Below, in pieces: positions 13,501-46,819 of a DNA stretch of 64,000 nt. Source of the stretch: Clostridium brassicae (GTDB lineage Bacteria; Bacillota; Clostridia; Clostridiales; Clostridiaceae). The number at the start of each line of letters is the position of its first letter. Positions within the stretch are counted from its first letter, which is position 1. Position numbers and translations under genes: made by a program. The notes beneath the pieces are model-generated. The model had not been told where the DNA came from. It made no database searches and saw only the letters and a list, made by a program, of their open reading frames with translations. The stretch spans positions 1-64,000 of the forward strand of contig NZ_JAPQFJ010000009.1 of the NCBI RefSeq assembly GCF_026738875.1. Reading direction: 5' to 3'.

Positions 13501-16145
13501 CTATAAGAGATATTATTGCAACAAGTCATGCTAGGGATAGACAAAATAAACCTGGTGGAATATTTTTATATAACAAAGCTACTATGGAAAAAGAAGATAT
13601 TGAGTTATTGTTAGCTATTTCTAGATTAGTTATAGAAGGAGATAACGGACTTGTTGTAAGTCAGGTAAAATTAGATTGTAAAGAAAATATAGATATTGAA
13701 GAACTTCCTGTTTTAGAGAAAGAATATAAATATAAACCTTACAAATTCCCTATGAATAAGCTTGAGTATTTTAATGAATTTGGTGGATTTGACTTAGAAG
13801 AAGATAAGTATGTGATAAGTATAAAAGGAGAAAAGAATACTCCTGCCCCTTGGATAAATGTTATAGCTAATAAAAATTTTGGTTTTCACGTATCTGAGAA
13901 TGGATCAGCTTATACGTGGTATAAAAACAGTAGAGAAAATAAAATCACAACTTGGTCAAACGATTGGATAAGCGATCCAGCTTCAGAAATAGCTTATCTA
14001 AGAGATGAAGAAACAGGAGATGTATGGACAATTACACCAAAACCTATAAGAGATGATGAGGAATATATAATTGAGCATGGATTTGGATATTCCAATTTTA
14101 AACATTATTATAATGGAATAATTGGAGAAATGGCTATGTTTGTTCCAAAAGAAGAGAATGTTAAATTATGCAAAGTTACTTTGAAAAATAATTCTGATGA
14201 AGATAGACATCTTTCGCTAACTTATTATGCACAAGTTGTATTAGGAGTTGTACCACAGCATACGTATACTCATATAGTAACTTCTATAAATAAAGATAAA
14301 AAATATATTTGGGCTCAAAATCCCTATAGCCAAAATTTTGGAGATTTATATGCCTATTTAAAAATTATAGGTGGCGAAGATGAGAACTTTACAGGTAATA
14401 GAAAGGAATTTATAGGAAGAGGCAATAGTATAGAAAATCCAGAAGCTTTAAAGAAAGTTTCGCTTTCTAATACTTCAGGTGGAGGTTACGATCCATGTCT
14501 TTGTGAAAATACAAAGTTTACAATAAAACAGGGAGAAGAAAAAACACTTTTAATTCTTTTAGGTGAAGATGATAGTTTAGATAAAGTAGAAGAAATAATT
14601 TTAAAATATGAAAATATAAGTAGTGCAGAAAATGAGCTTAAGAATGTTAAAGAATATTGGAGAAATTTACTTCATACTATTAAAGTTAAGACACCTAATA
14701 AACCAATGGATATATTGTTAAATGGATGGCTTTTATATCAGACTATAGTATGTAGAATTTGGGCAAGGAGTGCTTTTTATCAATCAGGTGGTGCATATGG
14801 ATTTAGAGATCAGCTTCAAGATATGATGGCAGTAGCATATGTAGATCCATCAATGACTAGAGAGCATATAAAATATAGTGCTTCTAGGCAATTCTTAGAA
14901 GGAGATGTTCAGCATTGGTGGCATCCAGGAGTTGATAGTGGTATAAGAACTAGATTTTCTGATGATTTGTTGTGGCTTCCATATGTTACAGCAGATTATA
15001 TAAATAGAACTGGAGATTATAGTATACTTGATGAAGAAGCTTATTATTTAGAAGATAGGCCTTTAGAGGAAGGTGAAGATGAAAGATATACTATATCAAA
15101 ACGCTCAGATACAAAAGGATCTATTTATGAGCATTGCATAAAAGCAATAGAAAGAGGATTAAAATTTGGACCTCATAATATACCATTAATGGGATCAGGT
15201 GACTGGAATGATGGTATGAGTGAAGTAGGTAATAAAGGAAAAGGTGAAAGTGTATGGTTAGGATGGTTTTTATATAGTATATTAGATAATTTTGAAGGTA
15301 TATGTAAATGGAAACAAGATTCTTCTAAAGCTGAAAGGTATACTGAAATGAAAGAGTTTATAAGAGAAAATCTTGAGGAGAATGCATGGGATGGAAGTTG
15401 GTATAGGAGAGCTTATTTTGATGATGGTACTCCATTAGGATCAATAGAAAATGATGAATGTCAAATAGATTCATTATCACAATCATGGGCTATTATATCA
15501 AAAGCAGGCAATGAAAATAGAGTTAAAGATGCTATGAATGCATTAGAAAAATATCTAATAAAAGAAGATATAGGTATGGTATTTTTACTTACGCCTCCTT
15601 TTGATAATGGTAGAGAAGAACCTGGATATATAAAGGGATATGTCCCAGGAGTACGTGAAAATGGAGGGCAATATACTCATGCATCAACTTGGGTAGTTTT
15701 AGCTATGACAGAATTAGGTTATGGAGATAAAGCATTAAAAGTATATAATATGTTAAATCCAATAAACCATACAAAATCCTACTATGAATGTGAAAGATAT
15801 AAAGTAGAACCTTATGTAATGACAGCAGATGTATATGGGAGAGAACCTCATATTGGAAGGGGAGGTTGGAGTTGGTATACAGGTACTTCGGGATGGATGT
15901 ATAGAGTTGGTATTGAAGGAATATTGGGATTAAAATTTAAAGGCGAAAAAGGCTTTACTGTAGAACCATGTATACCTAGTGACTGGAAAGAGTTCGAGAT
16001 TGAGTACACTAAAGGAGAGTGTAAATATATTATAAAAGTTATAAAAGGTAATACTAATAAGGTTAAAATTGATGGAAAAGAGTTGTTAGACAAAATAATT
16101 CCATACTTTGAGTCTGGAACTTATGAGGTGGAAATTACAATATAA
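7536..16145 (+). CDS. Cyclic beta-1,2-glucan synthase-like protein (GT84-GH189-GH94)
   Basis: Giant membrane enzyme of 2869 residues, close in size to Brucella Cgs and rhizobial NdvB. Order seen: soluble N-terminus; membrane helices near 426-480; a glycosyltransferase domain about 500-800 with DSDTVLPRD at 641 and HRWVRGDWQLIPW near 788; further helices near 825-990; a middle domain with ASEARQASF and MVHHEGMSLMA that corresponds to the cyclisation domain; then beta-sandwich modules and a GH94-like (alpha/alpha)6 domain with GSGDWNDGM near 2555. Known family role: polymerise UDP-glucose to beta-1,2-glucan, cyclise it and set chain length. A homologue from the Gram-positive Thermoanaerobacter has been studied. 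The true start is the ATG at 7536, with AAAGGAG 8 bases upstream; the GTG at 7527 overlaps that site. Single-gene unit. The product in this organism is inferred. Confidence 0.88.
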   Translation: MQYILLVIAIVIIVLQYILFYENSEKDENILYDFPVIDINKEELDKHALDISNNSSNEKRASSRRKLIKSLDKSYENIIKGYEYIEDNAKYKKDVPPAAEWLLDNLYLIEKEYKHIKYNMPNKYYKHLPVISKGMMKGYPRIYHIAVELVSHTDGRIDEDTVERFIKAYQSNTILSSGELWALPIMLRIALIQNIGNITQNIVFSQEEKRRADHISNRLIDALGDNRIEEEMENLVKEDVKFTVHFTERLLKILRDNGIDTQSVYEWIDEKLEIEETNTEKVINLEHQKQAKFQFSIGNSINSIREIEALNWRESFEKLSVVENVLRKDPAQIYPKMDFESRDYYRHMIEILSKKIKKPESFIAKKAIECAEEAEEIKGEEYRKHVGYYIFDDGLECLKKKSEFYKKGICTFKENIKKNAVLYYIGTIVFFTILIMSIFMSLSYFNDSERQLWRYIIAAIVLLIPCSEIVISILNWSVNHLIDPDFIPKLELINGIGEENRTIVVIPTIINNSKKAKELVENMEVYFLANSDENLYFALLSDFKDGKSKEEEGDKEVVETALKEIRKLNEKYAQNRDDIFYFFSRYRQYNEKEEIWLGWERKRGKLMEFNKLIRGDENTSYDVISGDIKELKKSKYIITLDSDTVLPRDSARKLIGAMAHVLNVPHIEKNRKRVYRGYGLMQPRIGVSTISANKTLFSKIFSGETGIDIYTTAVSDVYQDLFKEGIFTGKGIYHIDNFNYMIDEEIPENSILSHDLIEGEYTRCALVTDIQLIDGYPAYYNASSKRLHRWVRGDWQLIPWLRNKESLKPLSKFKMLDNLRRSLIAPAIIILIALSFNILPDGTDKWIIAAILALITPLLFDVTETVTSPVRGLNLSGQINNRKIALEQVFLIFCFLPYRAYLMIDAIVRTLYRLYISKKNLLEWQTAADAEAKSGKEIKDYVMAMWQGSLISVAILILAFLKSLNSGLLMMPSCILWFISPYIAYYISKEFKVRSENFTDEEEKILRRMSRKIWAYFEDFVNEEENWLAPDNFQEDPSNGIASRTSPTNIAMGLTSNLVAYDLGYIGIKENIERLKNILDGMDKLNKYGGHFYNWYDTRTLEPLYPKYISTVDSGNLVGYLWLLSENLHQYKNMSLLNMSMVDGIKDTIYLANEELEKVSQLKDFYKEYIEEIETSKFDVIFWRNFLLRILGKINQLENSDKCNELYWNGKLKHFVNMALEEIKEFLPWVDSIDDKNDETKELCESLSYLASKTRLNYFQCEVDNILKTYRKLKKETGALLKSSKDKVEKLLLDIDGVRKRVNAIIKDTDFRMLYDKKRGLFSIGYDIEKDSLGKSYYDLLASEARQASFVAIAKGDVDQKHWFNLGRAMAIMGRNKGLVSWSGTMFEYLMPLLIMKSYPGTLLDVTYKSVIEGQKKYCRRKNVPWGISESAFRSFDVSKNYQYKAFGIPGIGLKRGLKNELVISPYSTLMALQVDLKSSLENIKRLIGEGLEGRYGLYEAIDYTKERIPKDNKKPIVKCFMVHHEGMSLMALDNVLNKNILQERFHNISEVKATELLLQEKVPNRIIYEREHKFEASDRNYDKQNIISRKYNTAKTIIPEVHLLSNGRYSLMVSNSGSGYGKKDDMTVYRWKEDVTLDSSGMFFYIKDVKRNEYFSAAYEPCKTEGDRYEVIFSLDKAEFKREDKEFSTYMEIAVSNEEDAELRRISITNHGGEDKIIEITSYCEITLAPLNADIVHPSFSNLFIRTEFVSNPECIIGNRRPRAKGQNKPFVVQTVIVEGNEIGNVQYETSRVNFIGRGKSLSSPTSMEGDTPLQNTTGAVLDPIISIRKRIKIEPGKTCVIAYTTAVTDSRENAIEISNKYRDINNVNRVFELALTQNTVDMQYLGIKSPQANLYQVMASRILFLSPLCERRAQYIMNVKRGQQDLWKYGISGDLPIVLVVIKEEKHKEAVRQMLNAHEFWSIKGLKVDLVILNLQETAYTQPLQDSIRDIIATSHARDRQNKPGGIFLYNKATMEKEDIELLLAISRLVIEGDNGLVVSQVKLDCKENIDIEELPVLEKEYKYKPYKFPMNKLEYFNEFGGFDLEEDKYVISIKGEKNTPAPWINVIANKNFGFHVSENGSAYTWYKNSRENKITTWSNDWISDPASEIAYLRDEETGDVWTITPKPIRDDEEYIIEHGFGYSNFKHYYNGIIGEMAMFVPKEENVKLCKVTLKNNSDEDRHLSLTYYAQVVLGVVPQHTYTHIVTSINKDKKYIWAQNPYSQNFGDLYAYLKIIGGEDENFTGNRKEFIGRGNSIENPEALKKVSLSNTSGGGYDPCLCENTKFTIKQGEEKTLLILLGEDDSLDKVEEIILKYENISSAENELKNVKEYWRNLLHTIKVKTPNKPMDILLNGWLLYQTIVCRIWARSAFYQSGGAYGFRDQLQDMMAVAYVDPSMTREHIKYSASRQFLEGDVQHWWHPGVDSGIRTRFSDDLLWLPYVTADYINRTGDYSILDEEAYYLEDRPLEEGEDERYTISKRSDTKGSIYEHCIKAIERGLKFGPHNIPLMGSGDWNDGMSEVGNKGKGESVWLGWFLYSILDNFEGICKWKQDSSKAERYTEMKEFIRENLEENAWDGSWYRRAYFDDGTPLGSIENDECQIDSLSQSWAIISKAGNENRVKDAMNALEKYLIKEDIGMVFLLTPPFDNGREEPGYIKGYVPGVRENGGQYTHASTWVVLAMTELGYGDKALKVYNMLNPINHTKSYYECERYKVEPYVMTADVYGREPHIGRGGWSWYTGTSGWMYRVGIEGILGLKFKGEKGFTVEPCIPSDWKEFEIEYTKGECKYIIKVIKGNTNKVKIDGKELLDKIIPYFESGTYEVEITI

Positions 16146-16203
16146 TAATGTTGCGACGTAATATTAGAGTAGAGACTAGTGAACAGAGAATAAAGAATAG
16201 TAG

Positions 16204-16618
16204 AGGATGATTTTCCTCCTAAAGTTAGAAAATCTTACAACTAAGTAAAAAATAAGAGCATAATGAAAAATTAATTTTTCATTATGCTCTTTGTAGTTAG
16301 TCTAAATAAAGGAGCTAATAAGCTCTTAAAAGCGGTATCTGGTGGAAACATTACTAAATTTTAAATTAAGCATTTTTATTTATAGTATATTCTACATAAT
16401 AAAATAAATGTTAAGCCGTAGGCTGTAATAAGCTTTAATATTAAAGTAATATTATTGATATTGAGAATATAGATAGATTTATGTACTTTAAAATACTATT
16501 TATATCAGTACAGTATTATATATTATAAACCTTTTAATTTTAAATACTGATAGTTTGTTTTAAAATACTTTCTATTTAGTTTTAAGATTTTCTGACATAA
16601 GGAAGAAAATCATCCTTT
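16204..16618. repeat. Inverted-repeat-bounded element (MITE-like?)
   Basis: Left arm 16204-16243 (AGGATGATTTTCCTCCT...) and right arm 16577-16618 are inverted copies over about 42 bp with few mismatches. The 330 bp between them has no ORF and contains the terminator of the upstream gene. No transposase. It could be a miniature inverted-repeat element or a decayed mobile element. Confidence 0.6.
16254..16293 (+). terminator. Terminator after the glucan synthase gene
   Basis: Stem AAGAGCATAATGAAAAA paired with its complement over a 3-5 base loop, ending in a short T-run. Confidence 0.8.
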
Positions 16619-16676
16619 AGGCTTCCTATCTCTCCCCAATATACATTTTAAACTGTATTATTCATGAAAAATCAAG

Positions 16677-16951
16677 GCATAGGAATAAGGTTTTCTTATA
16701 TATGTAGTTAGTCAATTAAACTTTGAAGTAGCAACTAGAAATACTTAAGGTGTAGGTTTCTAAAAATGCGTAATTGTCGGAACGGACTCCGACAGCCGAG
16801 CTGGGGAATGGACTCCCCATAGCGAGGGTAGCATTTTTAGAATAATACACCTTTAGTATTTCTTTGCCTTCTGAAGGTTTAATGGATAACTACATATATT
16901 TAGAAAAACCTATTTCTATGCCGTTACTCATTCCGTTGTAATATTATTCTA
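16677..16951 (-). repeat. Nested-palindrome element, copy A
   Basis: About 275 bp, homologous throughout to copy B at 46375-46648 in inverse orientation. The ends form an imperfect terminal inverted repeat of about 37 bp (GGCATAGAAATAGG-type). Further inward the arms pair again (CTAAAAATGC/GCATTTTTAG). The core has two tight hairpins with six-base loops: TGTCGGA/TCCGACA (16775-16794) and TGGGGA/TCCCCA (16802-16819). In the trpS sense direction it starts at the trpS stop codon. The two copies differ by compensatory changes in the stems, so the folded form appears to be conserved. Confidence 0.85.
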
Positions 16952-17953
16952 GCGCGGAATAAATCCTATTTTCTTTTGAACTTTTCTAAGAGTTTTATTA
17001 GCGATGTAATTTGCTTTTTCTGCTCCAGTCTTATATATATTTTCAAGGTAAGTTTTATCTGAAATTAAGTCATTAACTTTTTTTTGAATTGGCTCTAATT
17101 CAGAAACTATTGCTTCTGCAACATCATTTTTAAACTGAGCATATCCCTGACCTTCATAATCTTTTTCTATTTTTTCAAAAGATTTACCAGTAATTACATT
17201 TAGTATAGTCATTAAATTCTTTATTCCTGGTTGATCATCAGAGTATTTAACTATACCGATACTATCGGTAACAGTTCTGCTTATTTTTTTTCTAATAACT
17301 TCTGGTGGATCCATAATTAAAATATAAGAATTAGGATTATCAGAAGACTTAGACATTTTTTTACTAGGGTCCTGTAAGTCCATAATTTTTGCTCCTGCTT
17401 CAGGAATGTATGGATCAGGAATCTTGAAAGTAGGGCTATATGCATTGTTAAATCTTTCAGCTATATCACGAGTTATTTCTAGGTGTTGTTTTTGGTCTAC
17501 ACCTACAGGAACTAAATCAGCTTGATATAACAAAATGTCTGCAGCCATTAATACAGGGTAATTGAAAAGACCAGCACTTATATGGTTACCATATCTTTGT
17601 GATTTGTCTTTATATTGAGTCATTCTACCTAATTCACCCATATATGTATTACAGTTTAAAAGCCATCCAAGTTCGCTGTGAGCAGGTACATGAGATTGAA
17701 TAAATAATGTGTTTCTATCAGGATCAATTCCTGCAGCTATATATATAGATAAAAGTTCTAGAGTCCTTCTTCTTAAATTTTTAGGTTCTTGTTTTACAGT
17801 TATAGCATGTAAATCAACTATACAAAAATAACAATCATATTCATCTTGAAGTTTTACCCAGTTTTTTAATGCTCCTAAGTAGTTTCCTAAAGTAAGATTT
17901 CCAGATGGTTGTATCCCACTAAAAATTACTTGTTTTGATTCTTGTTGTTCCAT
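16949..17953 (-). CDS. trpS: Tryptophan-tRNA ligase
   Basis: Class I aminoacyl-tRNA synthetase charging tRNA-Trp, 334 residues, normal length. Seen: PSGNLTLGNYLGA near the N-terminus (HIGH-equivalent TLGN), the GVDQKQHLE tract and KKMSKSSDN (KMSKS loop). The start has AGGAGGT 6 bases upstream. It is preceded by a Trp-specific T-box and its stop codon abuts palindrome element A, which may serve as its 3' end. Confidence 0.97.
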   Translation of the reverse strand: MEQQESKQVIFSGIQPSGNLTLGNYLGALKNWVKLQDEYDCYFCIVDLHAITVKQEPKNLRRRTLELLSIYIAAGIDPDRNTLFIQSHVPAHSELGWLLNCNTYMGELGRMTQYKDKSQRYGNHISAGLFNYPVLMAADILLYQADLVPVGVDQKQHLEITRDIAERFNNAYSPTFKIPDPYIPEAGAKIMDLQDPSKKMSKSSDNPNSYILIMDPPEVIRKKISRTVTDSIGIVKYSDDQPGIKNLMTILNVITGKSFEKIEKDYEGQGYAQFKNDVAEAIVSELEPIQKKVNDLISDKTYLENIYKTGAEKANYIANKTLRKVQKKIGFIPR

Positions 17954-18090
17954 AAGAATACCTCCTATTTTATTTTCAAATTTTCCATATCTGTCTTATC
18001 TATGATATTTGATAATGGATTAATGAAACTCATATTCATATATTTAAATGAATAAGCGATTTACATAAAGTTAAAAAGTTGATTTGTTGT

Positions 18091-18129
18091 CTAAGCTTCA
18101 GATGGAGTAAAACCATTTGCGAAGCTTAG
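18091..18129. other. Hairpin between trpS T-box and trpS
   Basis: CTAAGCTTC/GAAGCTTAG with an inner ATGG/CCAT pairing and an A-rich loop. It lies in the trpS leader downstream of the T-box terminator. There is no T-run, so its role is unclear. Confidence 0.5.
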
Positions 18130-18154
18130 AATATTTTTATTAAAATTAATATTA

Positions 18155-18440
18155 AAAAATAAACACCCTATACAACATTATTGTTGCATAGGGCGTATTA
18201 TATACGCGGTACCACCTAATTTTGAAAAACAAAGGTTTTTCCTCATTAAAGACACTAAATTCGTATCTTGCCTTTATAACATAAGGCTAACGTGTAAAGC
18301 TACTTAAAGTTCACTTTCAATCTCCAAGATCCATTCAGCTTAATCATAATTGTTGTATTTCCACCATCTACAACTCTCTGAAAATCTGTTTTAAAGCCTA
18401 CTTACTTCTCTTCATTGATTAATCTTCTATTTTTACATCT
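18155..18440 (-). promoter_or_regulatory. T-box leader, Trp specific, for trpS
   Basis: On the minus strand: AGAGAAGTA start, Stem I, AGAGAGTTG, then GCTGAA-TGG-ATC with specifier codon TGG (18333-18331), the antiterminator box AGGTGGTACCGCG (18217-18205) and a terminator stem ACGCCCTATGCAACA/TGTTGTATAGGGTGT (18164-18195) with a T-run. Uncharged tRNA-Trp should permit trpS read-through. Confidence 0.95.
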
Positions 18441-18655
18441 AATATATGCTTATTATAAATTTTTGTCAAGATTAATTTTATAAGTAGTGCAAAATGAAAC
18501 TTAAACATAGTTATGTAAGTTTGTAATTATATAATTTTATTAATTTATAAATTGTTGAAGAGATACCATTGAAAAAATCATTTAAAAATCTATAATTATT
18601 TTATTATTTAGTGGAATACTATGAAGGATTGATAATATAGGAGGTACTAATTATT

Positions 18656-18883
18656 ATGAAAAAAAACAAACAAAGAAATTCTAATGAACTAAATCAAAAT
18701 TCAAGTTTATATGGACCTAATGAAAGGGGGTATTTAGAAGAAAAACCTAAAATTATAAAAGCACATTCTCAGGTAGATTATACAGAACTTCCTGATCCTG
18801 TGAGAGATCCTATTGTTTCAAATGATATATCTAATGCAGAATTTGATTATACATACAATGGAGGAGATGATATTTTAGGATAA
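18656..18883 (+). CDS. Small hydrophilic protein of unknown function
   Basis: 75 residues, not recognised. Basic, Asn/Gln-rich N-terminus (KKNKQRNSNELNQNSS), then an acidic, Pro-containing C-terminal half rich in Asp and Tyr. No Cys, signal peptide or membrane segment, so it is probably cytosolic and partly disordered. An AGGAGGT site lies 9 bases before ATG, a good initiation signal, and a hairpin follows the stop. Short charged proteins of this kind are often sporulation products in clostridia, but nothing in the sequence proves this. Confidence 0.65.
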   Translation: MKKNKQRNSNELNQNSSLYGPNERGYLEEKPKIIKAHSQVDYTELPDPVRDPIVSNDISNAEFDYTYNGGDDILG

Positions 18884-18907
18884 TGTTGTATTTTACAACA
18901 TTATCCT
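18877..18907. terminator. Hairpin between convergent genes
   Basis: AGGATAATGTTGTA/TACAACATTATCCT with a 3-base loop, overlapping the stop of the small protein gene. The T-run is weak on +. On - it follows the HAD gene. Confidence 0.65.
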
Positions 18908-44715: not shown

Positions 44716-46374
44716 ATGGAGAAAATAGAGTTGGTTTTAAAAAAAGAAAAGAAAATTGAAGTAGAACAAGGAACGACTTTTCACAAAGTAATACAAGATA
44801 ATAACTTAAATGAGAAAAATACCTGCATACTTGGAAGTATCAATGGTAAGTTAAAGGAACTTGGTGAAATTATAGAAGAAAATGGTGAATTTAAGTGTGT
44901 GGACATAAGTAATGGAATTGCTAGATTAGCTTATTTAAGAACTGCTCAATTTGTATTAATTAAAGCTGTACATGAATTATATCCAGAAGCTTCTATAACT
45001 ATTGAACACTCAATAAGTAAGGGGATTTTTGGAGAAGTCCATAAAGAAACTCCTCTTACAATAAATGAGGTAGAAAGTATAAAGAATAGAATGTGTGATA
45101 TTATAGATAAAAACATACAAATAAAAAAAGTGTCTGTTTCAAAAGAAAAAGCTATAGAAATTTTCCAAAATTATAAAATGGATGATAAAATAAGGTTATT
45201 AAAGCATATTAAAGCTGATGATGTTAAGCTTTATGAATTAGATGGAAGATATGACTACTTTTATGGGCCAATGGCTTATTCTACTGCAGCAATTAAAATT
45301 TTTGATTTAATGTACTATGAGCCCGGCTTTATATTAAGAATCCCAGCTTCTGACAATCCGGATAAACTCCCTAGTTTTATAGATCATCCTAAATTATCTA
45401 AAATATTTTATGAAACAGAACAGTGGGGAAAGATACTAGGTATTGCTGATGTTGGAGCATTAAACAATATGGTTGTTAATGGAGAAATAGGAACTATGAT
45501 AAGGGTAGCAGAAGCTCTTCATGAAAAAAAAATAGCTTATATAGCGGATATGATTGCTAGAAGACAAGAAATTAAAATAGTATTGATAGCAGGACCATCT
45601 TCTTCTGGAAAAACTACTTTTACTAAAAGATTAGGGGTACAATTAAGAGTTAATGGACTAATACCTATAGAAATTTCTTTAGACGATTATTTTGTTGATA
45701 GAGAGCATACTCCAAGAGATAAAAATGGAGAGTATAATTTTGAGTCTATTTATGCTTTGGATTTAGAGCTTTTTAATAAAAATCTATGTCAACTTATGTC
45801 AGGAGAAGAAGTAGTTATACCTACTTATGATTTTTTAACAGGTAAGAGAAAGTGGGATAAGAAATCTTTTAAACTTCCCGATAATGGTATTTTGTTAATA
45901 GAAGGAATTCATGGACTAAATGAAATGCTTACAGCATCAATTAATAAAGATAATAAATTTAAGATATATATAAGCGCATTAACCCAATTGAATGTGGATA
46001 ATCACAATAGAATTTCTACTACTGATGTTAGAATAATAAGAAGAATAGTTCGAGATTATCTTTCTAGAGGTTATCTAGGAGAAGATACTTTAAAAATGTG
46101 GCCTTCAATAAGACGGGGAGAGGAAAATAATATATTTATATTTCAAGAAGAAGCGGATGTTATGTTTAATTCTAATTTAGTATATGAACTTTGTATTCTA
46201 AAAAAATATGCTGAAAAGGAGCTTGCTAAAGTTAAGGAAGACAGCCCCGTATATTACGAAGCCATGAGATTAAAAAGTTTTCTAAATTTCTTTAAGGATG
46301 TAGATAAAGACTTAGTTCCAGAAAATTCTATATTAAGAGAATTTATAGGAGGAAGTTGTTTTTATAAGTATTAA
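44716..46374 (+). CDS. Nucleoside kinase with N-terminal TGS/ThrRS-like domains
   Basis: 552 residues. Residues 1-60 form a TGS domain, about 60-220 resembles the tRNA-synthetase second additional (editing-like) domain, and the C-terminal half is a uridine kinase-like P-loop domain with GPSSSGKTT near 293, LDDYFVDR and EGIHGLNE. This fusion is typical of clostridial nucleoside kinases; cytosolic salvage of uridine/cytidine is likely. AGGAGGA 6 bases before ATG. Its stop codon is directly followed by palindrome element B. Confidence 0.9.
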   Translation: MEKIELVLKKEKKIEVEQGTTFHKVIQDNNLNEKNTCILGSINGKLKELGEIIEENGEFKCVDISNGIARLAYLRTAQFVLIKAVHELYPEASITIEHSISKGIFGEVHKETPLTINEVESIKNRMCDIIDKNIQIKKVSVSKEKAIEIFQNYKMDDKIRLLKHIKADDVKLYELDGRYDYFYGPMAYSTAAIKIFDLMYYEPGFILRIPASDNPDKLPSFIDHPKLSKIFYETEQWGKILGIADVGALNNMVVNGEIGTMIRVAEALHEKKIAYIADMIARRQEIKIVLIAGPSSSGKTTFTKRLGVQLRVNGLIPIEISLDDYFVDREHTPRDKNGEYNFESIYALDLELFNKNLCQLMSGEEVVIPTYDFLTGKRKWDKKSFKLPDNGILLIEGIHGLNEMLTASINKDNKFKIYISALTQLNVDNHNRISTTDVRIIRRIVRDYLSRGYLGEDTLKMWPSIRRGEENNIFIFQEEADVMFNSNLVYELCILKKYAEKELAKVKEDSPVYYEAMRLKSFLNFFKDVDKDLVPENSILREFIGGSCFYKY

Positions 46375-46648
46375 TAGAATAATATTATGACGTAATGAAT
46401 AATGGCATAGAAATAGGTTTTCTAAATATATTCAGTTATCTATTAAACATTTAGCATGCAAATAAGTATTAAAGGCACATTCTTCTAAAAATGCTACCCT
46501 CACTATGAGGTGTCAATATTTCAGTTCAGTTGCCGGAGTTCATTCTGGCAATTATGCACTTTTAGAATCTTACCCCTTAAGTACTTTTAGGTGCTACTTC
46601 AAAATTTACTTAGATAACTGCATACATAAGAAAACCTTATTCCTATGC
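46375..46648 (+). repeat. Nested-palindrome element, copy B
   Basis: Second copy of the element at 16677-16951, inverted relative to it on the chromosome but in the same orientation relative to the gene it follows. TIR-like ends GGCATAGAAATAGGTTTTC and its inverted partner near 46630-46648. Inner hairpins: TGAGGT/ATTTCA (46506-46523) and TTGCCGGA/TCTGGCAA (46530-46551), both with six-base loops. Stems differ from copy A by paired changes such as T-A to C-G and A-T to T-A. Confidence 0.85.
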
Positions 46649-46819
46649 TCTAGTTTTTTTATAAGTAAACTGATTATTACATCTACATACTGAAAAAACA
46701 TGATTTGTGGACAAGATATGTACTATTTAGTGAAAATAGTAAGTTTATAATGTTATAATATTTATATGAAAAATAAATTTTGTATAGCAATATATTAGAT
46801 ATATAAAGGAGGAATATAT

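Follow-up and report, generated by a model that had tools for sequence, protein, structure and literature searches.

A multi-copy palindromic gene-end repeat of Clostridium brassicae with a divergent TwoAYGGAY RNA core

A modular element after genes of the window

The stretch of 64,000 nucleotides of Clostridium brassicae analysed here (the window) holds two copies of a long palindromic element (Table 1), copy A reaching on its right side the stop codon of trpS and copy B starting at the stop codon of a gene for 552 aa. Copy A consists, from left to right, of a left end, a first arm, a second arm and a right end, and the list of open reading frames shows none of 80 aa or more between positions 16138 and 16951. 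Its left end is a degenerate form of a 19-bp head palindrome, AATGTTGCGWCGCAACATT, which is complete in a number of other copies of the element, while the stem of the first arm encloses a middle that differs among copies.

The second arm is the nested palindrome of the original prediction, which described an element of about 275 bp whose two copies fold around covarying hairpins. Indeed, in a BLAST comparison positions 16677-16951 (+) and 46375-46648 (-) are alike along the full 275-bp query (81% identity, E 7.6e-71). These 275 bp are therefore a true repeat, but only a part of the element, since copy A extends over 814 nt. The predicted fold was also confirmed: as RNA, the copy-A element has a minimum free energy of -258.6 kcal/mol on the + strand (z -17.5) and of -234.9 kcal/mol on the - strand (z -12.6; 20 shuffles each). 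The G-T wobbles ascribed to copy B are found on the + strand of the window only; the GGA loops of this copy are carried by the - strand, where the same pairs read A-C, and for this reason we regard copy B, which is also a shorter relic, as partly decayed.

Table 1. Positions of the two copies, their parts and the adjoining genes in the window
Feature	Position	Strand	Basis or detail
Copy A, composite element, 814 nt	16138..16951	+	BLAST extents against other copies; ORF list; fold
Copy A, left end (degenerate head palindrome)	16143..16166	n/a	pattern match 16144-16162
Copy A, direct repeat D2	16151-16166 / 16931-16946		left end / right end
Copy A, arm 1	16186..16634	+	stem 16186-16254 / 16566-16634, 77% complementary over 69 nt
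Perfect 19-bp inverted repeat in arm 1	16254..16291	n/a	spacer 0
Copy A, arm 2 (nested palindrome)	16663..16922	+	
Copy A, TwoAYGGAY-type core	16750..16851	+ (RNA strand)	covariance model R1, 122.8 bits; among the model-building copies, hence a match by construction
Copy A, hairpin 1	16775..16794	+	stem TGTCGGA/TCCGACA, loop ACGGAC 16782-16787; helix 7 of the pair count
Copy A, hairpin 2	16802..16819	+	stem TGGGGA/TCCCCA, loop ATGGAC 16808-16813; helix 9 of the pair count
Copy A, right end (half of head palindrome)	16924..16951	n/a	reaches trpS stop codon
trpS	16949-17953	-	ORF
Gene for 552 aa	44716-46374		
Copy B, arm 2 and right end only	46371..46668	-	copy-A positions 521-814
Copy B, TwoAYGGAY-type core, decayed	46474..46575	- (RNA strand)	R1, 92.6 bits; also among the model-building copies

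Some other features of the region deserve mention. Copy B is bordered on both sides by the 12-nt direct repeat TTTTTATAAGTA (46359-46370 and 46656-46667), which overlaps the element on one side and may be due to chance. The trpS block (window 16138-18900; L107/L111 of G005 and G003:C22) is inverted with respect to its neighbour gene when G003 and G005 are compared with the window's genome, G000, and its sister genome, G006, and a faint element is present at the junction of the inverted block in G005. Finally, the 64 kb include four T-box leaders and one lysine riboswitch (window 27350, 36400, 18186, 56067 and 4479).

Copies, gene-end sites and turnover between two species

The two copies of the original prediction were a gross undercount, and the further copies on which it had staked its interpretation are many. 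The 275-bp query gave 71 BLAST matches in G000 (4.10 Mb in 71 contigs), a figure that differs from the copy number because palindromic copies match on both strands. When copies with a full second arm were counted (at least 226 of 294 nt), 16 were found in G000 and 32 in G006, together with 25 partial matches, all three numbers being lower bounds taken from the retrieved loci. Since the assembly of G000 breaks within copies of the element, where contigs C20, C26 and C37 end, the true number is probably higher. The copies are modular, some missing the second arm and others most of the first. Some match was obtained in 5 of the 8 genomes of the genus, a strong one in G000 and G006 only.

A scan of genome contigs with the exact core pattern returned no match, the pattern being narrow and the own genome and its near relatives perhaps lying outside the set. 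The 19-bp head palindrome, scanned likewise, was found in 24 stretches, from Haloimpatiens lingqiaonensis (10), Clostridium sp. ZS2-4 (9), C. ganghwense (2) and unrelated MAGs (3, probably chance matches), none of which matched covariance model R1; solo palindromes are also present in relatives. The head palindrome often adjoins runs of a seven-base repeat (L192, L197, L201, L203, L210, L194, L196 and others), which is of the ATTGACA type in Haloimpatiens, of the AGTAACC type in ZS2-4 and of the GTGAACA type in the own lineage. A match to RAGATH-18 RNA lies near one G006 element (L129:614-677).

The elements sit at gene ends. The 69 sites scored in G000 and G006, which exclude 5 edge fragments and clusters below 90 bits and are partly orthologous and hence not independent, lie in 29 convergent, 37 tandem and 3 divergent gaps (11, 16 and 1 for the 28 sites of G000 alone), whereas 44 background gaps of at least 80 nt, defined with an ORF limit of 100 aa instead of 70 and including those occupied by copies A and B, comprise 6 convergent, 25 tandem and 13 divergent ones. 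No start codon was found within 10 nt of an element end at any of the 69 sites, and between tandem genes the element points with the genes 18 times and against them 19 times. At 47 of the 69 sites one element end is no more than 10 nt away from a stop codon (20/28 in G000 and 27/41 in G006). This last count, the scarcity of divergent gaps (3/69 versus 13/44), and the solo palindromes, one of which, with A/T-rich ends, occupies the copy-B site in G006, would all agree with an element kept as a two-way transcription terminator or as a stabiliser of mRNA 3' ends, its RNA core being incidental. However, insertion targeted to hairpins, as observed in the genome G210 (see below), would by itself give a gene-end position, and 800 nt with a conserved core exceed the needs of a terminator; we consider this explanation possible, if somewhat doubtful.

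How stable are these sites? Among the G006 stretches retrieved, 25 of the 28 G000 copies have a counterpart with an orthologous flank on one side or both, and 24 of these 25 counterparts contain an element, a proportion that has to be read knowing that all but two of the G006 stretches were chosen for carrying one. Out of 26 site pairs tried for orientation, 6 were without a flank; the 20 with both flanks comprise 9 with the same orientation, 9 with opposite orientation, 1 without common content and 1 empty in G006, with C18d and C18_7282 relying on weak matches. The empty site is that of copy B, where G006 has only a short perfect palindrome, AAAAGAAAAATGTTGCGACGCAACATTTTTCTTTT, with A/T-rich ends. 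Thus, both species have the element at the same sites, but mostly differ there in its orientation and content.

The opposite orientation of the element at 9 of the 18 sites that could be scored, between flanks that are mostly 87-96% identical in G000 and G006, is what a DNA-inversion switch would produce, with the same element flipping in place between its terminal repeats. Against this, at none of the 9 sites tested is the same-site G006 copy the closest one (it ranks 8 to 32 among 32; the 9 pairs have full arms in both species, with C1a and C1b matched by one flank). Nor does the tree group copies by site: some clades are specific to one genome (three G000 copies, support 99) and others are mixed. 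As, in addition, no promoter or gene was identified inside the element, we regard a switch as very improbable. The failure of same-site copies to be closest or to group by site indicates instead that replacement or exchange has affected many copies since the species split, and the roughly 50:50 ratio of orientations is compatible with a symmetric, palindromic site at which copies insert or are exchanged. One partial pair, C8/L159, has the same orientation and 91.7% identity over 229 nt and looks as if it had been inherited by site.

A structure kept by compensatory change and its RNA family

The structure of the second arm is kept by compensatory change. In an alignment of 48 second-arm copies with a predicted structure of 79 pairs, 97.8% of the 3780 pair cells pair. 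Double changes affect 20 of the 79 pairs and 186 cells, against means of 11.6 and 74.9 after shuffling (neither value is reached in any of 500 shuffles) and against 3-9 pairs and 3-32 cells when the structure is slid by 1-3 columns. Counted as events on the tree, 33 double changes keep pairing and 3 break it, while the eight slid controls keep 0-5, so that the covariation originally read from the hairpin stems of copies A and B is borne out. Non-compensatory changes in many copies would have refuted the same prediction, and here the outcome was in its favour: the double events speak for compensation, although the single ones are divided, 68 breaking a pair and 62 keeping it. As for its reasoning that paired changes show the shape to be kept, two copies alone could not prove it, because intrastrand templating can also produce paired changes in palindromes.

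Conservation is highest in the loops and joints (0.90-0.99) and lowest in the stems of hairpin 2 (0.73-0.74). Loops of the ANGGA type, most commonly ATGGAC and ACGGAC, are present in hairpin 1 of 44 of the 48 copies, in hairpin 2 of 44 and in both of 41. As these loops are not palindromic and lie on the copy-A strand, this is the likely functional strand. G-U cells outnumber A-C cells on it by 157 to 43; counted by events the ratio is 50 to 32, for which reason the strand bias gives moderate support for an RNA.

Could the element be selfish or inert palindromic DNA, its paired changes being due to intrastrand template switching, which perfects imperfect palindromes, and not to selection for an RNA? 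Long palindromes readily undergo such events, several of the stem changes are multi-base blocks (in hairpin 2, from TGGGGA/TCCCCA to TGCGTC/GACGCA), and copies lose either arm. However, palindrome correction is unable to preserve loops and joints, and it is these that are most conserved; other genera have the same GGA loops and GUAAUU, AGC and GGUAG joints together with stems that differ; and the core has matches to an Rfam family, RF01731. Intrastrand templating may therefore explain part of the paired changes, the conserved loops and joints arguing that it does not explain them wholly, and as an account of the whole element this explanation is in our opinion unlikely.

The covariance model R1, built from a 102-nt core in 44 copies, had matches, under strict filters, in 7 of the 206 genomes searched in the family, which belong to 4 of 46 genera, namely the own genus and three others. 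The distant loci have different stems but largely retain GUAAUU, the GGA loops, the AGC joint and GGUAG, and 2 of the 8 loci reach the gathering score of RF01731, the TwoAYGGAY RNA (43 bits; L226 with 49.8 and L219 with 43.9). Copy A, compared with Rfam at gathering and permissive settings, matched no credible family, and RF01731 not even at E<=10; since Rfam alone gave nothing for this copy, the link became visible only with the many-copy model and the distant homologs. When 20 relatives were searched with RF01731, G000 had 5 matches, all below the cut-off (best 39.9); of the 10 in G006 one exceeded it, as did the single match in G005. G102 had 14 matches and G210 had 35 (many above the cut-off), and the 14 control genomes had none. 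Therefore, 1 of the 15 matches in G000 and G006 exceeds the cut-off, and the same holds for 1 of 18 own-lineage loci with a full second arm scanned at the Rfam threshold. The copy that passes is G006:C1:1717462-1717614 (43.9 against a cut-off of 43).

With one copy scoring at least 43, two adjacent hairpins with AYGGAY loops and a structure kept by covariation, the core of the element is a divergent TwoAYGGAY RNA. The assignment is carried by the passing G006 copy together with homology, and not by copy A on its own. The original prediction had offered a structured RNA family or a mobile palindrome as alternatives, and the element is both at once, a TwoAYGGAY RNA within a multi-copy palindromic repeat; what did not stand is that the RNA family would be a new one. 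In sum, its observation was confirmed and its interpretation partly supported.

TwoAYGGAY was published in 2010 (Weinberg), where it is presented as a probable RNA that is probably not cis-regulatory and the Clostridiales are given among its taxa (PMC2864571), and Gardner and Eldai proposed it in silico as a CsrA-binding RNA (PMC4333381). In the genus studied here csrA genes are found in 8 of 8 genomes, including those without the element, and their presence is thus compatible with this proposal but not diagnostic. The RNA of the element possibly binds CsrA.

Probable mobility and relation to known systems

In G210, a genome of another family of the same order, the TwoAYGGAY core lies in an element of about 287 bp (283-289 bp). 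Of the 21 distinct copies with two flanks, 18 lie between direct repeats of 16-30 bp, each of them a complete, terminator-like hairpin; when flanks of different copies were paired as a control, 0.05 such cases were obtained per shuffle of 21. The ends of this element, TCAGAYTGTWGAMAAA, recur on an insertion sequence of the same genome that encodes a transposase of the IS1182 family (NF033551, 484 bits, cut-off 270) and of which 5 of 6 ends inspected by eye also border a hairpin. The G210 element thus has its ends in common with a resident IS1182-family element, as an IS1182-derived MITE does, and there is good evidence that TwoAYGGAY repeats are mobile in this one relative. A separate observation comes from G101, which has TwoAYGGAY elements too: all 10 examined copies of its 1611-bp IS1182-family insertion sequence (L312, L317, L322, L327, L330, L332, L334, L336, L338 and L340) lie between perfect duplicates of a terminator-like hairpin (18-45 bp, 45 bp being the limit of the search). 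The IS1182-family gene of G101 is in two pieces, one of them with a stop.

The element of the own lineage resembles a MITE in its terminal inverted repeats, its lack of coding capacity and its many copies. A target duplication of at least 12 bp was seen at 0 of the 28 G000 copies, the left boundary being uncertain in about a third of them. Its ends differ from TCAGACTGTTGA and are thus not those of an IS1182-derived MITE; G000 yielded one fragment of an IS1182-family gene, with a stop (77 bits), and no intact one, nor was any transposase matching the element found there. What links G210 to the own lineage is the common RNA core and the gene-end position, not the ends. A broken DDE transposase gene lies between the left end and the second arm of one G006 element (L135:2010-3300, G006:C1 ~2935.7-2937.0 kb); being a single broken copy inside an element, it was not accepted as a parent.

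The original prediction had also considered a REP/BIME-like element, which would be moved by a Y1 (RAYT) transposase. The element is palindromic and intergenic, and RAYT-like genes do exist, one in G000 and two in G006; but the RAYT loci examined, including that of the sole Y1 transposase gene found in G000, are flanked by different palindromes of the GGGACGGTT type and not by those of the element, and G002, G004 and G007 have RAYT-like genes with no head palindrome at one mismatch or less. We have accordingly rejected RAYT as the mobiliser, and such an origin seems barely conceivable. Palindromes of the GGGACGGTT type occur at L186:1227-1361 (AGGGACGGTTAATTC), L185:1164-1380 (GGGACGGTTAAT) and L189:2897-2963 (AGGGACGGTTCT).

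Taken together, these results make it probable that we are dealing with a non-autonomous, MITE-like mobile element in the form of a long palindrome, which occupies the terminator position after genes and whose right arm carries a divergent TwoAYGGAY RNA. If the mechanism of G210 is carried over by analogy, a transposase acting in trans would have spread the element of G000 into palindromic terminator sites, in either orientation with equal likelihood because the target is symmetric, and element copies would later have been exchanged or replaced. Read from the flanking gene, the RNA strand would display paired ANGGA hexaloops of the kind bound by CsrA/RsmA, and the elements may act as dispersed CsrA-binding RNAs at 3' ends. 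Against mobility, recombination instead of transposition could account for both copy number and turnover. A broader idea, which we put forward as speculation and think rather unlikely, is that TwoAYGGAY is a mobile regulator-binding RNA, the cargo of hairpin-targeting elements that give host transcripts CsrA-type modules at their 3' ends, in which transposition measures its target by fold; the duplicated target would then be one hairpin, of any length.

These findings bear on both the RNA and the insertion sequences. An RNA listed in 2010 without a function now turns out to form the core of elements that are amplified at gene ends in two bacterial families, which alters what its function could be and provides dozens of natural copies to test. 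Moreover, judging from G210 and G101, entire stem-loops of 16-45 bp may be duplicated by transposition into hairpins, and hairpin targeting would be a simple reason for the presence of such repeats at gene ends. Whole-hairpin duplication makes directly testable a branch of the IS1272 model that Wan et al. (2017; PMC5678879) only sketched, as a possible 'pathway b' in which the entire stem-loop is duplicated.

The element shows similarities with, and important differences from, several known systems: (i) Like TwoAYGGAY RNAs as known, it has a larger stem enclosing two hairpins with AYGGAY hexaloops, and the same joints, but it lies inside a long palindrome and is amplified (16 full copies in G000 and 32 in G006), and the copies of the own lineage mostly score under the Rfam threshold. 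(ii) With the CsrA-sequestering RNAs of the CsrB/RsmZ type, a class that Gardner and Eldai proposed for TwoAYGGAY, it has in common paired hairpins with GGA hexaloops; in contrast to these, it is dispersed as dozens of gene-end copies and not confined to one locus. (iii) The bcr-type repeats of Bacillus are also palindromic and intergenic and can fold as RNA. The element is much larger than these, modular and endowed with an Rfam RNA core. (iv) REP/BIME sequences, as described in PMC3733652, are likewise palindromic intergenic repeats able to fold as RNA, from which the element differs in its much larger size, its modular build and its Rfam RNA core, and no linked RAYT was found for it. (v) IS1272, a member of the IS1182 family, targets hairpins and terminators by their structure, inserts in both orientations at one target and reportedly deletes the target stem-loop without duplicating it, according to Furi (2016; PMC4923244) and Wan (2017; PMC5678879). 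The G210 element has similar targets and the ends of an IS1182-family insertion sequence, but in G210 (18/21) and G101 (10/10) the whole hairpin is duplicated and not deleted, and the ends of the own-lineage element are not IS1182-like. In the open-access literature we found no report linking TwoAYGGAY to mobility or to whole-hairpin duplication. Each ingredient of the element therefore has a known relative, and what is new is an orphan RNA family as the cargo of amplified gene-end repeats.
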